The notes: a model not told the origin generated them from the letters alone. 64,000 nt of DNA from Microlunatus sagamiharensis (GCF_900105785.1 NZ_LT629799.1:558001-622000); one strand, 5' to 3'. Positions 4,679 to 60,529 are shown, counted from the stretch's first letter. Translations and numbers: made by a program.

Positions 4679-6007
4679 ATGCGTTTCGTTCGCTCAGGGC
4701 GCCGCGTCGCGGTTGCTGCTGTCTCCCTCAGCGCGCTGCTCGTGGCCGCCGCCTGCGGTGGCAGCAGCTCCGACTCGGGCTCCGGCACCGGCTCCTCCGC
4801 CCCCGCCGTCGACTTCACCAAGCAGGGCGACATCGAGCTCTGGAACGGCAAGGACACGTCGGGCAACCTGCCGAAGCTGATCGCGCAGTTCAACGCGCAG
4901 CACCCCAACGGCAAGGTCACCTTCCACGAGCTCCCGGACAACGCCGACCAGCAGCGTCAGCAGATGATCCAGAACACCCAGATCAAGAACCCGGCCATGG
5001 CCGTCATCAGCATGGACGTGGTGTGGACGTCGGAGTTCGCGGCCAAGGGCTACGTCGTGCCGCTGCCGACCGACCAGTTCCCCACCGAGGGCTTCCTGCA
5101 GTCCGCCGTCGCCGGTGCGACGTACTTCAACAAGCTGTACGCCTACCCGTCGACCTCCGACGGCGGCCTCCTGTACTACCGCAAGGACCTGCTCGACAAG
5201 TACAACCTGCAGCCGCCGACGACGTTCGACGAGATGAAGACCGCCTGCGACACCATCAAGAAGGGCGAGAACAACTCCAAGCTCGACTGCTACGCCGGCC
5301 AGTACAACAAGTACGAGGGCCTCACGGTGAACTTCGACGAGGCCGTGCACAGCGCCGGCGGCGTCATCGTCGGTGACGACGGCAAGCCGAACGTGGCGAC
5401 GCCCGAGGCGGCCAAGGGCCTGCAGACCCTCGCCGACTGGTTCAAGAACGGCGACATCCCCAAGGCGGCCATCACCTGGCAGGAGGAGAACGGCCGTCAG
5501 GCGTTCGAGGCCGGTCAGCTGATCTTCCACCGCAATTGGGGCTACGTGTACAACCTCGCCCAGACCGACAAGGACAGCGTCGTCAAGGGCAAGTTCGATG
5601 TCGCGCCGCTCCCGGGCATCTCCGGGCCGGGCGTCTCGAGCCTCGGTGGCCACAACTTCGCCATCGCGGCGAACGCCGAGAACAAGGGCACCGCCGTCGA
5701 CTTCCTCAAGTTCATGAGCTCGGAGGAGGTCCAGAAGTCGAACACGCTGGCCACCTCGCAGTCGCCGACGATCGAGAAGCTCTACACCGACTCCGACCTG
5801 GTCAAGAAGTTCCCCTTCATGCCGACCCAGCTCAAGTCGATCCAGACCGCGATCCCGCGACCCAAGGCCGTCGAGTACGGCGACGTGACCCTGGCGATCC
5901 AGGACGCCGCGTACGGCGCGCTGCAGGCGGGGGCCAACGGCCAGACGGCCGACTCCACCACCGCCCTCCAGGGCCTGCAGACCAAGCTGCAGACGCTGAT
6001 CAAGTAA
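4679..6007 (+). CDS. Sugar ABC transporter substrate-binding lipoprotein
   Basis: A 442-residue family-1 extracellular solute-binding protein that captures an oligosaccharide outside the membrane and hands it to the two permeases downstream. The signal peptide ends in the lipobox 'LVAAAC' with Cys26 as lipid anchor, followed by a Ser/Gly-rich linker. The mature part follows the MalE/LpqY pattern: 'IELWNGKDTSGNLPKLIAQF' at the start, then 'YAYPSTSDGGLLYYRKDLLDK', 'FHRNWGY' and 'LGGHNFAIAAN'. Trehalose or an alpha-glucoside is a likely ligand, but ligand specificity cannot be read from sequence. Spacing before the ATG contains GTGAGG. Confidence 0.9.
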   Translation: MRFVRSGRRVAVAAVSLSALLVAAACGGSSSDSGSGTGSSAPAVDFTKQGDIELWNGKDTSGNLPKLIAQFNAQHPNGKVTFHELPDNADQQRQQMIQNTQIKNPAMAVISMDVVWTSEFAAKGYVVPLPTDQFPTEGFLQSAVAGATYFNKLYAYPSTSDGGLLYYRKDLLDKYNLQPPTTFDEMKTACDTIKKGENNSKLDCYAGQYNKYEGLTVNFDEAVHSAGGVIVGDDGKPNVATPEAAKGLQTLADWFKNGDIPKAAITWQEENGRQAFEAGQLIFHRNWGYVYNLAQTDKDSVVKGKFDVAPLPGISGPGVSSLGGHNFAIAANAENKGTAVDFLKFMSSEEVQKSNTLATSQSPTIEKLYTDSDLVKKFPFMPTQLKSIQTAIPRPKAVEYGDVTLAIQDAAYGALQAGANGQTADSTTALQGLQTKLQTLIK

Positions 6008-6027
6008 CGATCGGTCTCGCCCATCGG

Positions 6028-6054
6028 GTCCCCGGCGCGCTGCGCGCCGGGGAC
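6028..6054 (+). terminator. Intercistronic hairpin between binding protein and permease
   Basis: A perfect 13-base inverted repeat (GTCCCCGGCGCGC and its complement) has essentially no loop and no T-run. It sits 20 bases after the binding-protein stop and before the permease RBS. Such structures usually stabilise or partly terminate upstream mRNA, giving more binding protein than permease. Confidence 0.6.
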
Positions 6055-6084
6055 TCGCGGGCTCGTCTCCTAGGAGGTCACCGC

Positions 6085-7151
6085 ATGGCCACTGCCACGG
6101 TGGAAACACGTAGCGCTCCCGCCGCCTCCGGCGACGGCCGCAAGAGCAGGAAGAACGCGCTCAGCGACGGGCAGGGCCGTCTCGCCTGGATCCTGCTGGC
6201 GCCCACCCTGCTCGTCATCCTCGTCGTCGCCGGGATCCCGGTCATCATCTCGATCCGCGAGTCCTTCTTCGCCACCAACAACGGGGTCGACCCCGTCACC
6301 GGCATGGTCGCCGGCGGCGAGCGGTTCGTCGGCCTGGGCAACTTCACCGCGATCTTCGCCGGCGACAACCCGGTCGCCGGGTCGTGGGGGACGGTCGACC
6401 GGTTCTGGAACGCCTTCTGGAACACCACGGCCTTCACCGTCGTCTGCATCGTCCTCGAGACGATCCTCGGCGTGGCGATGGCCCTGATCATGTCGAAGGC
6501 CTTCAAGGGCCGCGGGATCGTGCGCGCCGGCATCCTCGTCCCGTGGGCCATCCCCACCATCGTCTCGGCGCTGATGTGGAAGCTGATCTTCGACGCCGAC
6601 GGCATCATGAACCGGGTCCTCGGTCGACAGGTCCTCTGGCTCGCCGACACCGGCTCCTCGTTCTGGGCCGTCGTCATCGCTGACACGTGGAAGACGGCGC
6701 CCTTCATCGGGCTGCTGACCCTCGCCGGCCTCCAGACCATCCCGGCCGAGGTCTACGAGGCCGCCAAGGTGGACGGGGCCACGACCTGGCAGCAGTTCAC
6801 CCGCATCACGCTGCCCCTGGTCAAGCCGACGCTCGTCGTCGCGGTGCTCTTCCGCACCCTCGACACGCTGCGCATGTTCGACCTGCCCTTCGGCATGATC
6901 GGCGCGGGCAAGTACCGCGTCGAGACGCTGTCGATCTTCTCCTACCTGGAGGCGACGCAGACCAGGTACGGCCCGGCCGCGGCGTACGCGATCGTGCTGT
7001 TCATCTACGTCCTGCTCGTGGCCTTCGTCTTCGTGAAGGTCCTCGGGGCCGACGTCATCGGTGACACCGGGATGCCGAAGAAGAAGAAGGACAAGAAGAA
7101 GGCGGGTGCCGCCGGGGCGCCCGGGCTAGAGATGGCGGGAGGGGCTCACTG

Positions 7152-7152
<1 letters not shown>
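6085..7152 (+). CDS. Sugar ABC transporter permease (MalF/SugA type)
   Basis: A 355-residue inner-membrane subunit of a carbohydrate ABC importer. It has a basic N-terminus, a first membrane segment at about residues 32-58, then five more. The EAA loop that contacts the ATPase reads 'EVYEAAKVDGATTWQQF' near residue 225. The C-terminus is Lys-rich ('KKKKDKKK'). The ATG has an AGGAGG six bases upstream. The stop shares its A with the next gene's ATG (TGATG), so the two permeases are coupled. No ATP-binding subunit follows; in actinobacteria such importers often share a distant MsiK-type ATPase. Confidence 0.9.
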
Positions 7153-8084
<932 letters not shown>

Positions 8085-51405: not shown

Positions 51406-52203
51406 ATGGCGAAGCCGACCAAGCAGAAGAGCAAGCAGACGGACGCCAGGACCGAGATCGAGGCCCTGGGCAAGCAGACCCGCAAGGCGTTCGACGCCCT
51501 CGTCGCCGAGGTGCGCCAGCTGGGCGAGGAGGTGCGGGCGCGCACCGCCGACGCGACCAGCCAGGTGGCGGGCCGGGTCGCCGGCCAGGCGGGGGACCAG
51601 GCGGTGCAGACCGTCGACTTCTGGTTCGACCCGATCTGCCCGTGGGCGTGGATGACCTCGCGCTGGATGCTCGAGGTCGAGCAGGTCCGCCCCGTGAAGA
51701 CGGTCTTCCACGTGATGAGCCTCTCGGTGCTCAACGCCGGGCGTGACCTGCCCGACGGCTACCGCGAGATGCTCGACCTCGGCTGGGCCCCCGTCCGCGT
51801 CGCGATCGCCGTGGAGGAGCGGTACGGCCAGGAGCAGCTGCGCGCCTTCTACACCGCCGTCGGCACCCGGATCCACAACCAGCAGCAGGGCTTCGGCCGC
51901 GACACCCTCGAGGCCGCGCTGCGCGAGGTCGGACTGCCCGCCGAGCTCGCCGACGCCGGCGACGTCGGCGACAACGACGAGGCCCTGCGCGCCTCGCACC
52001 ACCAGGGCATGGACCCGGTCGGCCAGGACGTCGGCACGCCGGTCATCCACGTCGGCGACGTCGCCTTCTTCGGCCCTGTCATGTCGCCCGCGCCCAAGGG
52101 CGAGGAGGCCGGCCGCGTGTACGACGGCGTGCTCGCGCTCGCCTCGTACCCGGGCTTCTTCGAGCTCAAGCGCACCCGCACGGTCGACCCGATCTTCGAC
52201 TGA
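51406..52203 (+). CDS. Mycothiol-dependent DsbA-fold reductase (Rv2466c-like) with N-terminal coiled-coil extension
   Basis: The C-terminal 200 residues follow mycobacterial Rv2466c, a mycothiol-dependent thioredoxin-fold reductase: '[20 protein letters not shown]', '[17 protein letters not shown]', 'RIHNQQQGF', '[20 protein letters not shown]' and '[14 protein letters not shown]'. The active site is CPWA (Cys78) where Rv2466c has CPWC, so the resolving Cys is missing. The first 67 residues are an unusual Lys-rich, helical extension ('[20 protein letters not shown]'), reminiscent of a phasin or coiled coil. The ATG is 6 bases after a TAGGCT box, so the extension is really translated. Converges on ycaO. 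Confidence 0.85.
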
Positions 52204-52224: not shown

Positions 52225-53667
52225 CTACACCTCGACGAGGTGGCGCGGGGGCTCGCGGTAGAGGGGGTAGAGCGGCCCGACCACGCGCTCGGCCGCCGCG
52301 TAGGAGAACCAGGCGGGACCGCCGAGCCGCTCCTCGGCCTTGGCCGTGAGGACGACGCGGTCCGGGTGGCTCTCGGTCGGTCCGTCGCCCAGGCGGACCA
52401 GCCCCAGGTCGGTGGTGAGGAGGTCGGCGACGCCGGCCTCGCCGATTCGGCCGTAGGACATCGTCTCGACCTCGAGGCCGCCCACGAGGACCTTGGCCAC
52501 GTGCACCTCACCCACCCGCGTGGTCGCCGCGAGGACGTCGTGGCCGGCCAGGGTCGCGAGCAGGCCGGTGAGGGTCCCGTCGGCGGCGTCGCCGGCCGGC
52601 ACCTCGATCGCGTCCCGGCCGACCGTGCGTGAGCGGTCGGGCGCGGTCAGCTCGCGCAGCCGCTGTGCGCCCAGGTCGTGCCACGCCCGCATGGCGCTGA
52701 CGGCCCGGGGCTCGCCGGTCGCCCCGCCGCGCTCGACCGCGGCCCAGTAGTCGGGGTCGGCGACGGCCCTCGCGGCCGCCCGGTCGCCGAAGCAGAACGC
52801 CTTGCGGGCGCGCGAGTTCGCGTGCTCGAGCAGGGCCTTGAGCAGGCTGCGCTCGACCGACTCCTCGGCCGCCTCGCCGCAGGCGGTGAGGCGGATCGGC
52901 GAGGAGTCGTCGTGGTCGACGCCCATGACGTAGGTCGAGCAGGCGCCGAAGGACGTCGCGGCGTGCTTGAAGACCGCCTCGACGCCCTCGGCCGCGAAGC
53001 GCGCGGCCAGCGCCGCCACCTCGCCGTCCGGGTCGAGCCCGCTCGGGTCGATCTCGGGCGAGCGGAGGTCCAGCGCCCGGAACCGCAGCCCGTTCGTGTG
53101 GCGCTGCAGGATCTCGAGGATCCCGTGGCGGACGGGGCGCTCCGCGTCGAGGCCCGCGCCGAGCCCGTTCGTCACCGGCGTGACCAGGGCGGGGGAGCCG
53201 GCGTCGTCGCGCTCGGCCGGGTCGCTGGCGACGAGGTCGAGCGGGGCCCAGACCTCCTCCCCGGTCCGCACGCGGACGACCGGCACCCAGGTGATCGGCG
53301 TCGCGGGCGTCCACGGCGAGCCGGCGGGCAGGCAGAGCGTCGCCGGGTCGGCGACCCGGTCGACGCCCTCGCGCCGGACGAGCTCCTCGAACGACCCGCG
53401 GACGGCCCGGGCGTGCAGGCTCCGCACGTGGTCACCCGCCAGGACGCCCTCGGCGAGCTCGCCGAGCCCACTGAGCCGGGCGTCCTCGCTCGTCAGCCCG
53501 TAGCCGTTGCCGTTCATGGCGAGCCGGCCGTCGACGATCAGCGAGCAGCTCGTCACCGGGACGCCGAGGTGGTCGAGGGCGGAGATGTCGAAGTCGACGA
53601 CCTGGCCGCCGCGGCCCAGCACCTCCCCGTACGCCGTCACCGCGTCGGACGCACCCTGCTCGAGCAC
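52225..53667 (-). CDS. Stand-alone YcaO-domain protein
   Basis: YcaO enzymes use ATP to activate a peptide amide, forming azoline or thioamide products, or assist RimO-type thiomethylation. Seen: 'GNGYGLTSEDARLSGLGELA', where family members have 'GKG.t...A..SAl.E..ER', and 'TNGLGAGLDAERPVRHGILE' followed by 'ILQRH', the second half of the ATP/Mg site. Then comes a Cys-containing middle part and a C-terminal region ending 'YREPPRHLVEV'. The final Pro-rich motif of azoline YcaOs is not evident. GTG 53667 (480 residues) is preferred over GTG 53715 because GAGGGGG lies just before it. No partner E1-like protein or precursor peptide is visible; a NodB-fold gene is divergent. Confidence 0.75.
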   Translation of the reverse strand: MLEQGASDAVTAYGEVLGRGGQVVDFDISALDHLGVPVTSCSLIVDGRLAMNGNGYGLTSEDARLSGLGELAEGVLAGDHVRSLHARAVRGSFEELVRREGVDRVADPATLCLPAGSPWTPATPITWVPVVRVRTGEEVWAPLDLVASDPAERDDAGSPALVTPVTNGLGAGLDAERPVRHGILEILQRHTNGLRFRALDLRSPEIDPSGLDPDGEVAALAARFAAEGVEAVFKHAATSFGACSTYVMGVDHDDSSPIRLTACGEAAEESVERSLLKALLEHANSRARKAFCFGDRAAARAVADPDYWAAVERGGATGEPRAVSAMRAWHDLGAQRLRELTAPDRSRTVGRDAIEVPAGDAADGTLTGLLATLAGHDVLAATTRVGEVHVAKVLVGGLEVETMSYGRIGEAGVADLLTTDLGLVRLGDGPTESHPDRVVLTAKAEERLGGPAWFSYAAAERVVGPLYPLYREPPRHLVEV

Positions 53668-53741
53668 CTGGTCCCCCTCGTCTGCGTGCTGCTTGACTGT
53701 CGGCCTCACCACCACGCACGACGCGAGAGGCAGGGTCCACA

Positions 53742-54518
53742 GTGCAGCACGGCGACGTCAGCCACGCGGGCGACGGCGCCCGCCTGCGCGACCTGATCCT
53801 CGCGCAGACCCACCGCGGCGCCGGCGTCCCGGTGCTGCTGCGCACCGCGCCGGCCGGTCCCGAGGAGGCCGAGCCGTACGGCGCCGCGGCCTACCAGGTG
53901 CAGGTCGACCTGGCGGCCCGGATGCTCGACGGAGAGGACCTCGGTACGCCGGAGCCGGGCAGCCTGGCGGCGCGGCTGCTCGAGCGGCCGCTGCTGGCCC
54001 TGAACTTCCACCGGATCCGCGGGCGCAACCAGGAGGTCGTGCGCGAGCAGCTGCGCCGCGCCGCCGCCCTGGGCTCGAGCTTCGACCTGGACGCGCCCGA
54101 GCAGCAGGTCGGCGAGGTCCGCGTGCTCGTCGGCTTCTACGACGGCTTCGCCCGGACCGCGGAGTTCGCCGCCGAGCTGTCGCGCTCGCTCGGGCTGCGG
54201 GCTGTGTTCCTGCCGATCTTCCACGCGCCCACGTCGGGCCGCCTGCTCACCGACGCCCAGCTCGGCGAGATCGCGACCGCCCACGAGGTCGGGGTGCACA
54301 CCACCCGCCACGTCGCGGCGGCCGAGGTCGACGAGGCGACCGTCGGACCCGAGGTGGTGGAACCCTTCCGCCGCATCGAGCGGGCCACGGGCCGGGCCCC
54401 GCGCATCGCCGCGTGGCGTGGCGGGACGCGCTTCGACGGCTCGCTGCTGGGCAACCGGACGCTGGTCGAGCTCGGCGTGACCCACCTCGTCTCGAACTGG
54501 TCGGTTGAGAGGATCTGA
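53742..54518 (+). CDS. Degenerate NodB-fold (polysaccharide deacetylase-like) protein
   Basis: A 258-residue protein whose C-terminal 140 residues resemble the NodB fold. 'VGFYDGFARTAEFAAELSRS' corresponds to motif 1 ('TFDDG....'), with the catalytic-base Asp changed to Tyr but the metal-ligand Asp kept. 'GVHTTRHVAAAEVDE' matches motif 2 (HxxxH). 'IAAWRGGTRFDGSLLGNRTL' is where motif 3 (R..P) is expected. The N-terminal 110 residues are helical and match nothing I know. GTG 53742 is preceded by GAGAGGCAGG. Divergent from ycaO across 74 bases, so joint regulation is likely. Confidence 0.6.
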   Translation: MQHGDVSHAGDGARLRDLILAQTHRGAGVPVLLRTAPAGPEEAEPYGAAAYQVQVDLAARMLDGEDLGTPEPGSLAARLLERPLLALNFHRIRGRNQEVVREQLRRAAALGSSFDLDAPEQQVGEVRVLVGFYDGFARTAEFAAELSRSLGLRAVFLPIFHAPTSGRLLTDAQLGEIATAHEVGVHTTRHVAAAEVDEATVGPEVVEPFRRIERATGRAPRIAAWRGGTRFDGSLLGNRTLVELGVTHLVSNWSVERI

Positions 54519-57082: not shown

Positions 57083-60000
57083 GTGAGCGTGACGAGCACG
57101 ACCGTCGGACCCCCCGCCGCCGGGCCTCAGGGCACCGTCGGCGAGCGGCCGGCTGCGGGCTCCGGCCGGTCCGGCTCGGTCCGCGGCACCCCCCGGATGC
57201 CGCGGCTGCCGCAGCTGGTGTCGCGGCTGTGCTTCCTCGCCGCCGTCGTGGTCGTGCTGGGCACGGCGTTCCCCGGGGTGGGGTGGATCGAGGCGCTCGT
57301 CGACCTCTGCTCGACCGTCTTCTTCCCCGTCGACGGGGCCTCGATCGGCTTCGCGGTCTTCCTGCTCCTCCTGGGGGCGGCGCTGGCCCGGCGCAAGCAC
57401 GTGGCCTGGGTCCTCGCGCTGGTCATCTTCGGCTTCTTCCTGCTCACCGACCTGGCCGTGGTCACCGGCCTGGTCGCCTCCCTCTTCGCGGTCCAGACCG
57501 ACTTCGGCTCGCTGCCCGTCTACGCCCGCTTCGCCCTGAACCTCGCCGCGCTGGGCGCGCTGACCGCCGCGATGGTCCACTACCGCGGCGAGTTCAGCGC
57601 CCGCCGCGCCCCCGGCAGCGTGCGCAAGGCGCTCCTGGTCCTGCTCGGCGGGCTGGTCGTCACCGTCGGCGTCGGCATGGCCCTGGTCACCGTGTTCCCC
57701 ACCGAGCTGGTCGGCCCGCGCGGGCGCCTCGCGTTCATCGCGAACCGCCTGGTCAGAACCCTCTTCGGCACCGAGACCGACCTCGCCCCGCAGGCCGTCG
57801 CGAGCGCGCCCGGCTGGATCGGCACGGTCGTCGGGCTGCTGCTCGGGCTCACCCTGCTGGCCGCCGTCGTCGCGCTGACCCGCTCCCAGCAGCTCGCCGC
57901 GCTGATGTCGGAGGAGGACGAGCCCCGCGTCCGCGCGCTCGTCGCCCGCTCCGGGGACGACTCGCTGGCCTACTTCGCCACCCGCCGCGACAAGTCGGTC
58001 GTCTTCGCCCCCGACGGCGCCGCCGCGGTCACCTACCGCAACGACCTCGGGGTGTGCCTGGCCAGCAGCGACCCGATCGGTCCGCCCGAGCGCTGGGGCG
58101 GGGCCATCCGGGCCTGGCAGGCGTTGGCCGACACCTACGGCTGGACGCCGGCCGTCGTCGGGGCCAGCGAGGCCGGCGCGACCGCGTACGCCCGTGACCT
58201 CGGCCTGCGGGTGATCCGGATCGGCGACGAGGCCGTGCTGCACCCGCGCGACTTCCACCTCGCCGACCGCGACATGCGCCCGGTGCGCCAGGCCGTGCAG
58301 CGCCTCGAGCGCCTCGGCTACACGACCCGCATCAGACGCCACCGCGACATCCCGCCCGCCGAGCTCGAGGCCCTGGTCGGGCGCGCGGACGCGTGGCGCG
58401 ACACCGAGAGCGAACGGGGCTTCTCGATGGCCCTCGGCCGGCTCGGCGACCCCGCCGACGCGGCCTGCCTGATGGTGGAGGCCCTGCTGCCGGTCGACCG
58501 GGCGGGCGTGGACGGCGGTGCGGCGAGCCAGGTCGCGGGGCTGCTGTCCTTCGTGCCGTGGGGGACCGACGGCTTCTCCCTCGACGTCATGCGGCGCAAC
58601 CCCGACGCGGACAACGGCGTCACCGAGCTGATGGTCAGCGCGCTGATGGACGCCGGGCCCGAGCTCGGTGTCCGGCGCGTCTCGCTCAACTTCGCGGTGT
58701 TCCGCAGCGCCTTCGAGGAGGGCGCCCGGATCGGCGCCGGTCCGGTGCTGCGGCTGTGGCGCCGCCTGCTCCTGGTGGCCTCGCGCTGGTGGCAGTTCGA
58801 GTCGCTCTACCGCTCGAACGTGAAGTACCGCCCCGAGTGGCAGCCCCGGTTCCTGTGCTTCGCCGAGACGCGCGACATCGCCCTGGTCGGCACGGCGCTG
58901 GGCGTCGCCGAGGGGTTCATCGACCTGCCGTCCTTCCTCCGGCCCCGCGTCGAGCTGGGTGCCGCGCGCCACGTCCCGGCCGACGGCACGCTCGCCGTCG
59001 AGCCCCTCGTCGCACCGGTCGCCGACCCCGAGCCCGCGGGGTCGCGGCTGCCCGAGCAGGTCCGGCTGCGCATGGCGACGCGCGAGCGGCTCGTCGCCGA
59101 GGGCACCGACCCCTACCCGCCGTCCTTCCACCCGCAGGACACCGCCGACTCGGTCTCGCAGGCCGGCGACGCGGACCTCGGCCGGCCGGTCAGCGTCGCC
59201 GGGCGCGTGGTGGCGGTGCGCGACCTCGGCGGCGTCACCTTCGTGGTGCTGCGCGACTGGAGCGGCGACGTCCAGCTGCTGCTGAGCGCCGACGTGGCGG
59301 GGGAGGAGGCGCTGGAGCGGCTCCGCCGCGACGTCGACCTGGGCGACCACCTCGGGGCCGAGGGCACCGTCGTCCGCTCCCGCAGCGGCGAGCTGTCGGT
59401 CGGCGTCACCACCTGGCTGCTGACCGCCAAGTCGCTGCGCCCGCCGCCCGACGTCCGGGGCGGGGTCCGGGACCCCGAGGCCCGTGTCCGGCAGCGCTAC
59501 CTCGACCTGGCGGTCAACCCGCTGGCCCGCCGGCGGCTGCGGTCCCGCTCGGCCGTGCTGCGCGCGGTGCGCGACACGCTCGACGCCCGCGGCTTCCTCG
59601 AGGTCGAGACCCCGATCCTGCAGACCATTCACGGCGGTGCGAACGCCCGGCCGTTCCGGACGCACATCAACGCCTACGACCTCGACCTCTACCTGCGGAT
59701 CGCGCCCGAGCTGTTCCTCAAGCGGCTCATGGTCGGCGGGGTGGACCGGGTCTTCGAGATCGGCCGGAACTTCCGCAACGAGGGCGCCGACGCCACGCAC
59801 AACCCCGAGTTCACGATGCTCGAGGCCTACGAGGCGTACGGCGACTACACGACCATGCGGACGGTCGCGCAGCAGATCGTCGTCAACGCCTCCCGTGCGG
59901 TGAGCGGCGGGACGCTGGTGCGCGGCACGGACGCGTCCGGGGTCGAGCACGAGGTCGACCTCGCCGACGACTGGCCGGTCGTCACGGTGAACGACGCGAT

Positions 60001-60529
60001 CTCGGCCGCCGCCGGCACCACCGTCACCGCCGACACCCCGAAGGAGGAGCTGCTCGCGCTCGCGCGCGCGCTCGGCATCGCCGTCGACGGCTCGTGGACG
60101 CGGGGCAACGTGCTGCTCGAGCTCTACGAGCACCTCGTGGAGTCCCGCACCGTGCGTCCGACCTTCTACACCGACTTCCCCGCCGAGGTGTCGCCGCTGA
60201 CCCGGCAGCACCGCGTCGACCCGCGGCTGGCCGAGCGCTGGGACCTGGTCGCCTTCGGCGCGGAGATCGGCACCGCGTACTCCGAGCTCGTCGACCCCGT
60301 GGAGCAGCGCGCCCGTCTCACCGCGCAGTCGCTGCAGGCCGCGGGGGGCAATCCTGAGGCCATGGAGCTCGACGAGGACTTCCTGCTCGCGCTCGAGCAC
60401 GCGATGCCGCCGAGCGGTGGCCTGGGGATGGGGATGGACCGGCTGGTGATGATGCTGACGCAGGCCTCGATCCGGGAGACGATCGCCTTCCCGCTGGTCA
60501 AGCCGCGCTCCTCCGACGCCGCCCGGTGA
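57083..60529 (+). CDS. lysX: Bifunctional lysylphosphatidylglycerol synthetase / lysyl-tRNA synthetase (LysX)
   Basis: A fusion that charges tRNA-Lys and transfers lysine to phosphatidylglycerol, making the membrane less anionic and giving resistance to cationic peptides in mycobacteria. The 1148 residues contain: a basic N-terminus; about seven membrane segments (residues 45-275); the MprF-type DUF2156 transferase (about 290-610, with 'YFATRRDKSVVFAPDGAAAV'); the OB-fold (from about 690); and the class II LysRS core with motif 2 'FRNEGADATHNPEFTMLEAY' (about 897) and motif 3 'GLGMGMDRLVMM' (about 1113). GTG 57083. The stop overlaps the next gene (GTGA). Confidence 0.95.
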   Translation: MSVTSTTVGPPAAGPQGTVGERPAAGSGRSGSVRGTPRMPRLPQLVSRLCFLAAVVVVLGTAFPGVGWIEALVDLCSTVFFPVDGASIGFAVFLLLLGAALARRKHVAWVLALVIFGFFLLTDLAVVTGLVASLFAVQTDFGSLPVYARFALNLAALGALTAAMVHYRGEFSARRAPGSVRKALLVLLGGLVVTVGVGMALVTVFPTELVGPRGRLAFIANRLVRTLFGTETDLAPQAVASAPGWIGTVVGLLLGLTLLAAVVALTRSQQLAALMSEEDEPRVRALVARSGDDSLAYFATRRDKSVVFAPDGAAAVTYRNDLGVCLASSDPIGPPERWGGAIRAWQALADTYGWTPAVVGASEAGATAYARDLGLRVIRIGDEAVLHPRDFHLADRDMRPVRQAVQRLERLGYTTRIRRHRDIPPAELEALVGRADAWRDTESERGFSMALGRLGDPADAACLMVEALLPVDRAGVDGGAASQVAGLLSFVPWGTDGFSLDVMRRNPDADNGVTELMVSALMDAGPELGVRRVSLNFAVFRSAFEEGARIGAGPVLRLWRRLLLVASRWWQFESLYRSNVKYRPEWQPRFLCFAETRDIALVGTALGVAEGFIDLPSFLRPRVELGAARHVPADGTLAVEPLVAPVADPEPAGSRLPEQVRLRMATRERLVAEGTDPYPPSFHPQDTADSVSQAGDADLGRPVSVAGRVVAVRDLGGVTFVVLRDWSGDVQLLLSADVAGEEALERLRRDVDLGDHLGAEGTVVRSRSGELSVGVTTWLLTAKSLRPPPDVRGGVRDPEARVRQRYLDLAVNPLARRRLRSRSAVLRAVRDTLDARGFLEVETPILQTIHGGANARPFRTHINAYDLDLYLRIAPELFLKRLMVGGVDRVFEIGRNFRNEGADATHNPEFTMLEAYEAYGDYTTMRTVAQQIVVNASRAVSGGTLVRGTDASGVEHEVDLADDWPVVTVNDAISAAAGTTVTADTPKEELLALARALGIAVDGSWTRGNVLLELYEHLVESRTVRPTFYTDFPAEVSPLTRQHRVDPRLAERWDLVAFGAEIGTAYSELVDPVEQRARLTAQSLQAAGGNPEAMELDEDFLLALEHAMPPSGGLGMGMDRLVMMLTQASIRETIAFPLVKPRSSDAAR

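Follow-up and report, generated by a model that had tools for sequence, protein, structure and literature searches.

The window analysed here is a 64,000-nucleotide stretch of Microlunatus sagamiharensis DNA. In it, a ycaO gene stands back to back with an open reading frame on the plus strand (53742-54518) that encodes a NodB-fold protein with an N-terminal part here called X. An earlier note on this DNA had described a stand-alone YcaO divergent from a NodB-fold protein, and both the open reading frames (Table 1) and the YcaO assignment, to a full-length protein, were confirmed. The start of ycaO is probably GTG 53667 rather than GTG 53715 because similarity to the family starts approximately 20 residues into the long open reading frame. 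With this start the two genes are 74 bp apart; with the upstream GTG the gap is 26 bp. A simple scan found no sigma-70-like site in the intergenic region, and a consensus scan for promoters and terminators gave no matches. A gene for an Rv2466c-like mycothiol-dependent nitroreductase (51406-52203) stops just short of the ycaO end; at other loci this gene is outside the module. At 57083-60529 the window encodes an 1148-aa protein of the LysX type, in which phosphatidylglycerol lysyltransferase is fused to lysyl-tRNA synthetase.

Table 1. Features of the divergent ycaO and X-NodB genes, in positions of the window.
Feature	Position	Strand	Remarks
ycaO	52225-53715	-	480-496 aa by start codon; PF02624, AlphaFold2 model, alignment
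EILQR (E201-R205) in YcaO	53101-53115	-	Clade signature; Gln replaces the second Glu of the usual ExxER
ycaO/X-NodB intergenic region	53668-53741	.	74 bp, common to both divergent genes
X domain, residues 1 to ~69	53742-53948	+	Fused to NodB in the window; boundary approximate
NodB-like domain, residues ~70-258	53949-54518	+	Circularly permuted PNAG-deacetylase type, by structural matches
H90 of NFH motif	54009-54011	+	Probable permuted acid-His motif; invariant in 14 sequences
Y133-D134	54138-54143	+	Tyr for catalytic-base Asp, then metal-ligand Asp; codons TAC GAC
H186-T-x-x-H190	54297-54311	+	Metal-binding HxxxH motif, kept; alignments

The window YcaO matched PF02624 over the entire profile (positions 1-325 of 325; E = 4.7e-39; 135.1 bits against a cut-off of 25.7), and a profile search of the complete 4.4-Mb genome identified it as the sole YcaO. 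The best structural match to its AlphaFold2 model was the MJ1094 YcaO (6peu; Z 32.4, rmsd 3.1, 363 aligned residues), and methanogen YcaOs ranked ahead of LynD, TruD, McbD, and E. coli YcaO. The protein scored 61.9 bits against TIGR03604 (SagD-type; cut-off 219.25) and 60.4 bits against TIGR03266 (McrA-thioamidation; cut-off 365). The latter was its second-best NCBIfam match and was the best for an alphaproteobacterial relative. The window protein is acidic (pI 4.98) and lacks a PxPxP C-terminus, ending in LYREPPRHLVEV. In the clade to which it belongs, the first ExxE motif (E86/E89) is kept and the second is ExxQ in 40 of 42 members, with E201 kept and Gln at position 204; the methanogen YcaOs have ExxER as read from the HMMER alignment. 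Residues E86, E89, N183, E201, R205, E297, and R302 are invariant or nearly so across four bacterial groups. The window YcaO is a member of the superfamily by profile and fold, and it is so without the canonical active site.

Classical YcaO partners were sought throughout the genome. There were no matches to TfuA (PF07812) at E 0.1, and control genomes did give matches. The E1-like model TIGR03882 had one match, which is distant from the ycaO locus and below the cut-off (35.1 bits versus 36.9); such sub-cut-off matches also occur in 8 of 14 control genomes, that of E. coli included. The view of the earlier note that no partner is visible held for TfuA, and no E1 passed its cut-off. A short conserved peptide, for which the same note had suggested a search, was sought at the locus and in relatives. 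No short open reading frame besides X was common to the different module contexts, which speaks against a shared precursor beside YcaO; X does not look like a precursor but may be one. The small-ORF matches in this search were GC-rich frames, scored without composition correction.

Against Pfam, the NodB-like protein of the window scored 21.3 bits (E = 2.8e-4), under the cut-off of 23.1, and two relatives scored above it (29.5 and 40.8 bits). The predicted structure of X-NodB has a mean pLDDT of 90. The ten best matches to its NodB part were permuted PNAG-type deacetylases and relatives (PplD, IcaB, BA0330/BC0361, PgaB, and BpsB; 170-178 residues aligned, with Z 12.7-14.8); below them Z drops to 9.1. 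A reading of the domain as truncated, without its last motifs, was revised on the basis of this search, which indicates a permuted topology with the acid-His motif N-terminal. The NFH motif lies N-terminal to the FYDG motif and is invariant; we take its H90 to be the PgaB-type acid histidine from motif position and general knowledge. The metal triad D134, H186, and H190 aligned with the CE4 motifs and is also invariant in 14 sequences. The alteration of the active site that had been noted was borne out, with Tyr in place of the catalytic-base Asp in 14 of 14 sequences (FYDG where FDDG is usual). A CE4 protein without the base Asp could not deacetylate chitin substrates (PMC5855634). Given this precedent, loss of the base makes ordinary deacetylase activity unlikely, and we infer a metal- and sugar-binding role for the NodB part.

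The part before NodB had been described as a novel half. It is novel, with no match for X in Pfam, but the description was incomplete since other lineages have X as a small protein of its own. In seven loci (L026, L027, L028, L029, L071, L072, and L073; two Microbacterium, four Micromonosporaceae, and Microlunatus kandeliicorticis) X is its own open reading frame of 78-102 aa, and in all seven there is an overlap of exactly 4 nt between its stop and the start of NodB. At these split loci X and NodB are predicted to be translationally coupled. In seven Propionibacteriaceae, the window among them, X and NodB form a single fused protein, with X at the N-terminal end. The idea that X is a meaningless N-terminus was rejected because it is a separate gene in seven loci. 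Structure prediction gives a folded X (pLDDT mostly 79-96 for residues 21 to 70 of the model), and in the fused model it adds helices and a strand before the NodB barrel. In its alignment both ends carry conserved blocks and the middle varies. Several weak structural alignments to entire TIM barrels start within X, which raises the suggestion that X may complete or cap the barrel. The YcaO companion therefore has the NodB fold, as was claimed, but is a two-part protein (X plus NodB) rather than a single protein with a novel N-terminus.

Among 97 related genomes, eight have a YcaO and the identical eight have a NodB-like protein. In every one of them the two genes are neighbours in divergent orientation, within surroundings that vary between subgroups. 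A scan of GTDB contigs added pairs from Microbacterium (two) and Paractinoplanes, and also recovered the Desertihabitans pair and two Microlunatus pairs already found. With NodB as bait, 251 Micromonosporaceae genomes gave four full matches, three of them new, with a YcaO opposite in each. A YcaO of this clade occurred in 1 of 300 Microbacteriaceae, and in a 396-genome sample of the phylum this type of NodB occurred in no genome except the window's own. No full NodB of this type was found without the YcaO in the genomes searched. The module is thus sporadic and either complete or absent, and the co-occurrence on which the earlier note had hung its proposal held without exception in the Actinobacteria sampled. 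The divergent pairing is kept across at least seven gene neighbourhoods in three families. One other of the 251 Micromonosporaceae genomes (L078:6427-6573, genome G1483) carries only a 49-aa C-terminal NodB remnant with no YcaO nearby and is apparently a decayed module. Distances between YcaOs and between NodBs correlated weakly (r = 0.23, p = 0.06), and cophylogeny by distance correlation was dropped as support. The YcaO of the split-X Microlunatus clusters with those of other split-X loci (94/88), apart from its fused congeners, which suggests transfer of the whole module.

Beside six actinobacterial modules, in Microbacterium and Micromonosporaceae, lie three genes for an orthologous ABC importer of carbohydrate type, with 43-52% identity between the two groups. 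One family has the importer on the side of NodB, the other on that of YcaO. As a background level, the permeases of a second importer at one such locus are only 29-35% similar. In Propionibacteriaceae, window included, no orthologous importer was seen in the vicinity of the module, so the link to sugar import is partial. The window does hold a carbohydrate-type ABC importer at 5222-8081, which is 25-29% similar to the module-linked importer of other genera.

In the YcaO tree the clade has two halves, separated with full support, one actinobacterial and the other myxobacterial/alphaproteobacterial. YcaOs of the clade were found in 31 of 195 Myxococcota genomes, in Alphaproteobacteria, and on a plasmid of Hymenobacter (Bacteroidota). 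Among 72,556 plasmids, YcaO similarity falls abruptly from 46-49% within the clade to 30% or less for other YcaOs. This is a coherent clade that spans four phyla and has a common change in the active site. At the sister-clade loci examined there was no NodB beside YcaO and X was not seen, and a search of two of these genomes, Corallococcus and Aerophototrophica, gave no NodB of this type. In place of NodB the loci carry an HD protein together with a sugar/cyclitol operon, so NodB is not an obligate partner of the clade. The proposal that the NodB-fold protein is a new type of YcaO companion therefore stands as a genomic fact, but not as a rule for the clade.

At most of the sister-clade loci examined, the operon consists of nine genes: those for an inositol-phosphate synthase (INO), the HD protein, a methyltransferase, a Gfo/Idh/MocA protein, an MBL-fold protein, YcaO, an isomerase, a GT4 enzyme, and a PIG-L protein. 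The isomerase is a xylose-isomerase-like TIM barrel, YcaO is present in one to three tandem copies, the methyltransferase is variable, and the MBL-fold protein, which has a possible Zn-ribbon, is absent in some loci. The genes are packed tightly and many junctions overlap by 4-10 bases, which leaves no obvious place for a precursor gene. In one genome (L062, L063) a second YcaO is at a separate locus together with the HD protein and the methyltransferase, neither of which is in the main operon; this suggests an HD-methyltransferase-YcaO sub-module. On the 72,556 plasmids, the HD protein occurs in exactly the four records that bear this YcaO clade. It was rejected as a hidden partner in Actinobacteria, being absent from 13 of 14 module-bearing genomes, with a weak partial match in the remaining one. 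PADLOC gave zero matches for YcaO, X, NodB, and the HD protein, and the YcaO had no phage matches; an anti-phage role was rejected on these searches. In six myxobacterial loci (L060:4715-6067; L061, L062, L064, L066, and L069) a MATE-family transporter gene, assigned from a Pfam match for one of the six, is immediately upstream and is a candidate exporter of the operon product.

The window module was compared with known systems. The methanogen YcaOs (MJ1094 and M. kandleri) are the closest solved structures (Z 32.4 and 28). They work without E1, and the window has no E1 above the cut-off and a YcaO without PxPxP. By contrast, identity to them is 19%, the window enzyme has ExxQ and a different gene neighbourhood, and it falls far below the TIGR03266 cut-off. 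To our knowledge, no mcr genes are expected in the window organism. The azoline-forming YcaO/E1 systems (SagD, McbD, TruD, and LynD) share the fold (Z 21.7-25.4); unlike these, the window YcaO is below the TIGR03604 cut-off and lacks both an E1 above the cut-off and PxPxP. The YcaO-TfuA thioamide RiPP systems of the thioviridamide type have the YcaO superfamily in common with the window, but the window genome is without TfuA and no precursor was seen. Like the window YcaO, the E. coli YcaO, which carries out uL16 thioamidation (PMC13063428), is stand-alone, acidic, and without a precursor. However, its structure is a weaker match (Z 18.9), and the window YcaO differs in being sporadic, in having a conserved divergent X/NodB, and in having a sister clade in a biosynthetic-type operon.

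The NodB part has the fold, the permuted NFH motif, and the metal triad of PgaB, IcaB, and PplD. It differs from these in the replacement of the base Asp by Tyr, in having no signal peptide seen, and in being joined or coupled to X and paired with YcaO. The CE4 pseudoenzyme ECU11_0510 has also lost the base Asp (PMC5855634). The sister-clade operon and the mycothiol/bacillithiol pathway both have an Ins-P synthase, an MshA/BshA-like GT4, and a PIG-L deacetylase, but the operon proteins score far below the equivalog cut-offs (GT4 104 versus 462; INO 33 versus 638), no MshC/MshD-like gene was seen, and the operon adds YcaO, HD, Gfo, MBL, methyltransferase, and isomerase. As far as we know, CE4 pseudoenzymes of the ECU11_0510 type are not permuted and have no link to YcaO. 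A literature search, with many subscription papers outside its coverage, found no report of YcaO together with an inositol-1- or 3-phosphate synthase, and only incidental mentions of YcaO with polysaccharide deacetylase. The nine-gene operon is apparently undescribed.

YcaOs use ATP to activate amide oxygens, the substrates of NodB and PIG-L enzymes are N-acyl sugars, and GT4 enzymes of the MshA/BshA type transfer sugars to small acceptors, Ins-P and malate among them. Both halves of the clade have a predicted N-acyl-sugar-handling fold (NodB or PIG-L) together with genes for sugar transport or synthesis, and this gene neighbourhood favours a carbohydrate-like small molecule over a protein as substrate. 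The occurrence of sister-clade relatives in a nine-gene sugar/inositol operon suggests that this branch of YcaO may act on a non-peptide. Our best explanation, held tentatively and at somewhat less than an even chance, is that this YcaO clade is a distinct one, associated in its genomes with genes of carbohydrate or cyclitol type instead of RiPP genes, and that it activates an amide outside RiPP biosynthesis. By analogy with characterised YcaOs, ATP would be used to phosphorylate the amide oxygen, which a nucleophile would then replace; the product could be a thioamide, an amidine, or an oxazoline/thiazoline. The amide would most likely be on a small non-RiPP substrate, for example an amino-sugar or aminocyclitol with its acetamido group. 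The X/NodB of Actinobacteria could bind the N-acyl sugar and a metal ion and act as a deacetylase-derived presenting partner rather than a hydrolase, and in some lineages the carbohydrate importer would bring the substrate in. In other phyla the INO, GT4, PIG-L, Gfo, and isomerase enzymes would build it. A more specific version, in which the YcaO acts on the non-peptide amide of an amino-sugar or aminocyclitol, the operon makes an undescribed inositol-glycoside, and X/NodB is a presenting pseudo-deacetylase, is possible but on the doubtful side.

Several observations count against a non-peptide substrate. All characterised YcaOs in two papers (PMC13063428; PMC8442711) act on peptide or protein, and the second of these, an actinobacterial survey, states that a non-RiPP YcaO function lacks evidence in that phylum. 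The importer is not near the Propionibacteriaceae modules, the YcaO/NodB distance correlation is weak, and with ExxQ in place of ExxE the enzyme could be weaker in its use of ATP. With NodB absent from the sister clade, the functions of the two halves may also differ. Two rival readings stand out: in one a cellular protein is modified, as the earlier note had suggested for the pair, and in the other X is a peptide substrate. In the former, YcaO would thioamidate a folded protein, as for E. coli uL16 or methanogen McrA, with X/NodB recruiting the target. This is consistent with McrA-thioamidation YcaOs being the nearest solved structures, with the rank of TIGR03266 for both the window YcaO and its alphaproteobacterial relative, with the acidic pI, a trait noted for the E. 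coli YcaO, and with the latter having neither precursor nor partner (PMC13063428). Sporadic occurrence in 8 of 97 relatives and 1 of 300 Microbacteriaceae is ill-suited to a universal protein target, however, the TIGR03266 score is 60.4 bits against a cut-off of 365, and the sister clade is among small-molecule-type genes. We consider protein modification rather unlikely. That X is the YcaO substrate of an unusual RiPP-like system, with NodB as a carrier or tailoring partner, seems to us quite improbable. X is small, adjoins YcaO, and is coupled to NodB, and the YcaO precursors known from Actinobacteria have 31-89 aa (PMC8442711), but its fusion to NodB in seven lineages, its predicted fold, the conserved ends with a variable middle instead of a leader and hypervariable core, and its absence from the sister-clade loci seen here argue otherwise.

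A YcaO that is catalytically inactive or uses ATP in another way, within a regulatory or structural module, is very unlikely. Such a role would agree with the Glu to Gln change in 40 of 42 members and with the loss of the NodB base in 14 of 14, but the other compared YcaO residues are invariant or nearly so over four bacterial groups, which suggests selection for function. Some myxobacterial operons carry tandem YcaO copies, two or three in number (L031:6705-8180; L065:9012-10502; L068:7515-12103). The second copy in Corallococcus praedator has lost several conserved residues (E86K, N183H, and Q204R) and looks as if it were an inactive partner of the first; the L065 copy has E86K and N183H too. 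Beside these two copies with further losses, the remaining YcaOs look maintained. We see only slight prospects for a classical RiPP enzyme whose precursor and partner are elsewhere in the genome. Some RiPP systems do have distant partners, but this genome has no TfuA and no E1 above the cut-off, no short open reading frame is common to the contexts, the C-terminus is not PxPxP, and the module moves between contexts as YcaO and X/NodB alone. An ordinary deacetylase beside an unrelated YcaO by chance is already strongly disfavoured and highly improbable. The co-occurrence counts partly reflect common descent and the distance correlation is weak, but chance pairing was rejected because YcaO and NodB co-occur, adjacent and divergent, in varied contexts across three families, the lone YcaO-less NodB is a remnant, and the base Asp is missing in every NodB compared.

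If the more specific version, with an amino-sugar or aminocyclitol as substrate, is correct, ATP-dependent activation of amides would extend from peptides to carbohydrates. With sugar/cyclitol genes, no precursor, and a common active-site change, the clade makes the question of whether YcaOs act outside peptides directly testable. A disabled deacetylase would be a new kind of YcaO companion. The findings also point to an apparently undescribed nine-gene pathway, sometimes plasmid-borne, in Myxococcota, Alphaproteobacteria, and Bacteroidota; one thought is that its product serves in stress protection. The plasmid-borne operons are those of Roseomonas, Methylobacterium, and Hymenobacter (L082:3879-13191; L083:4531-13510; L084:7691-16392). 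The Roseomonas plasmid operon is near two genes of the spore-photoproduct-lyase family, and many of the operon carriers are from exposed habitats (air, lichen, and soil crust).
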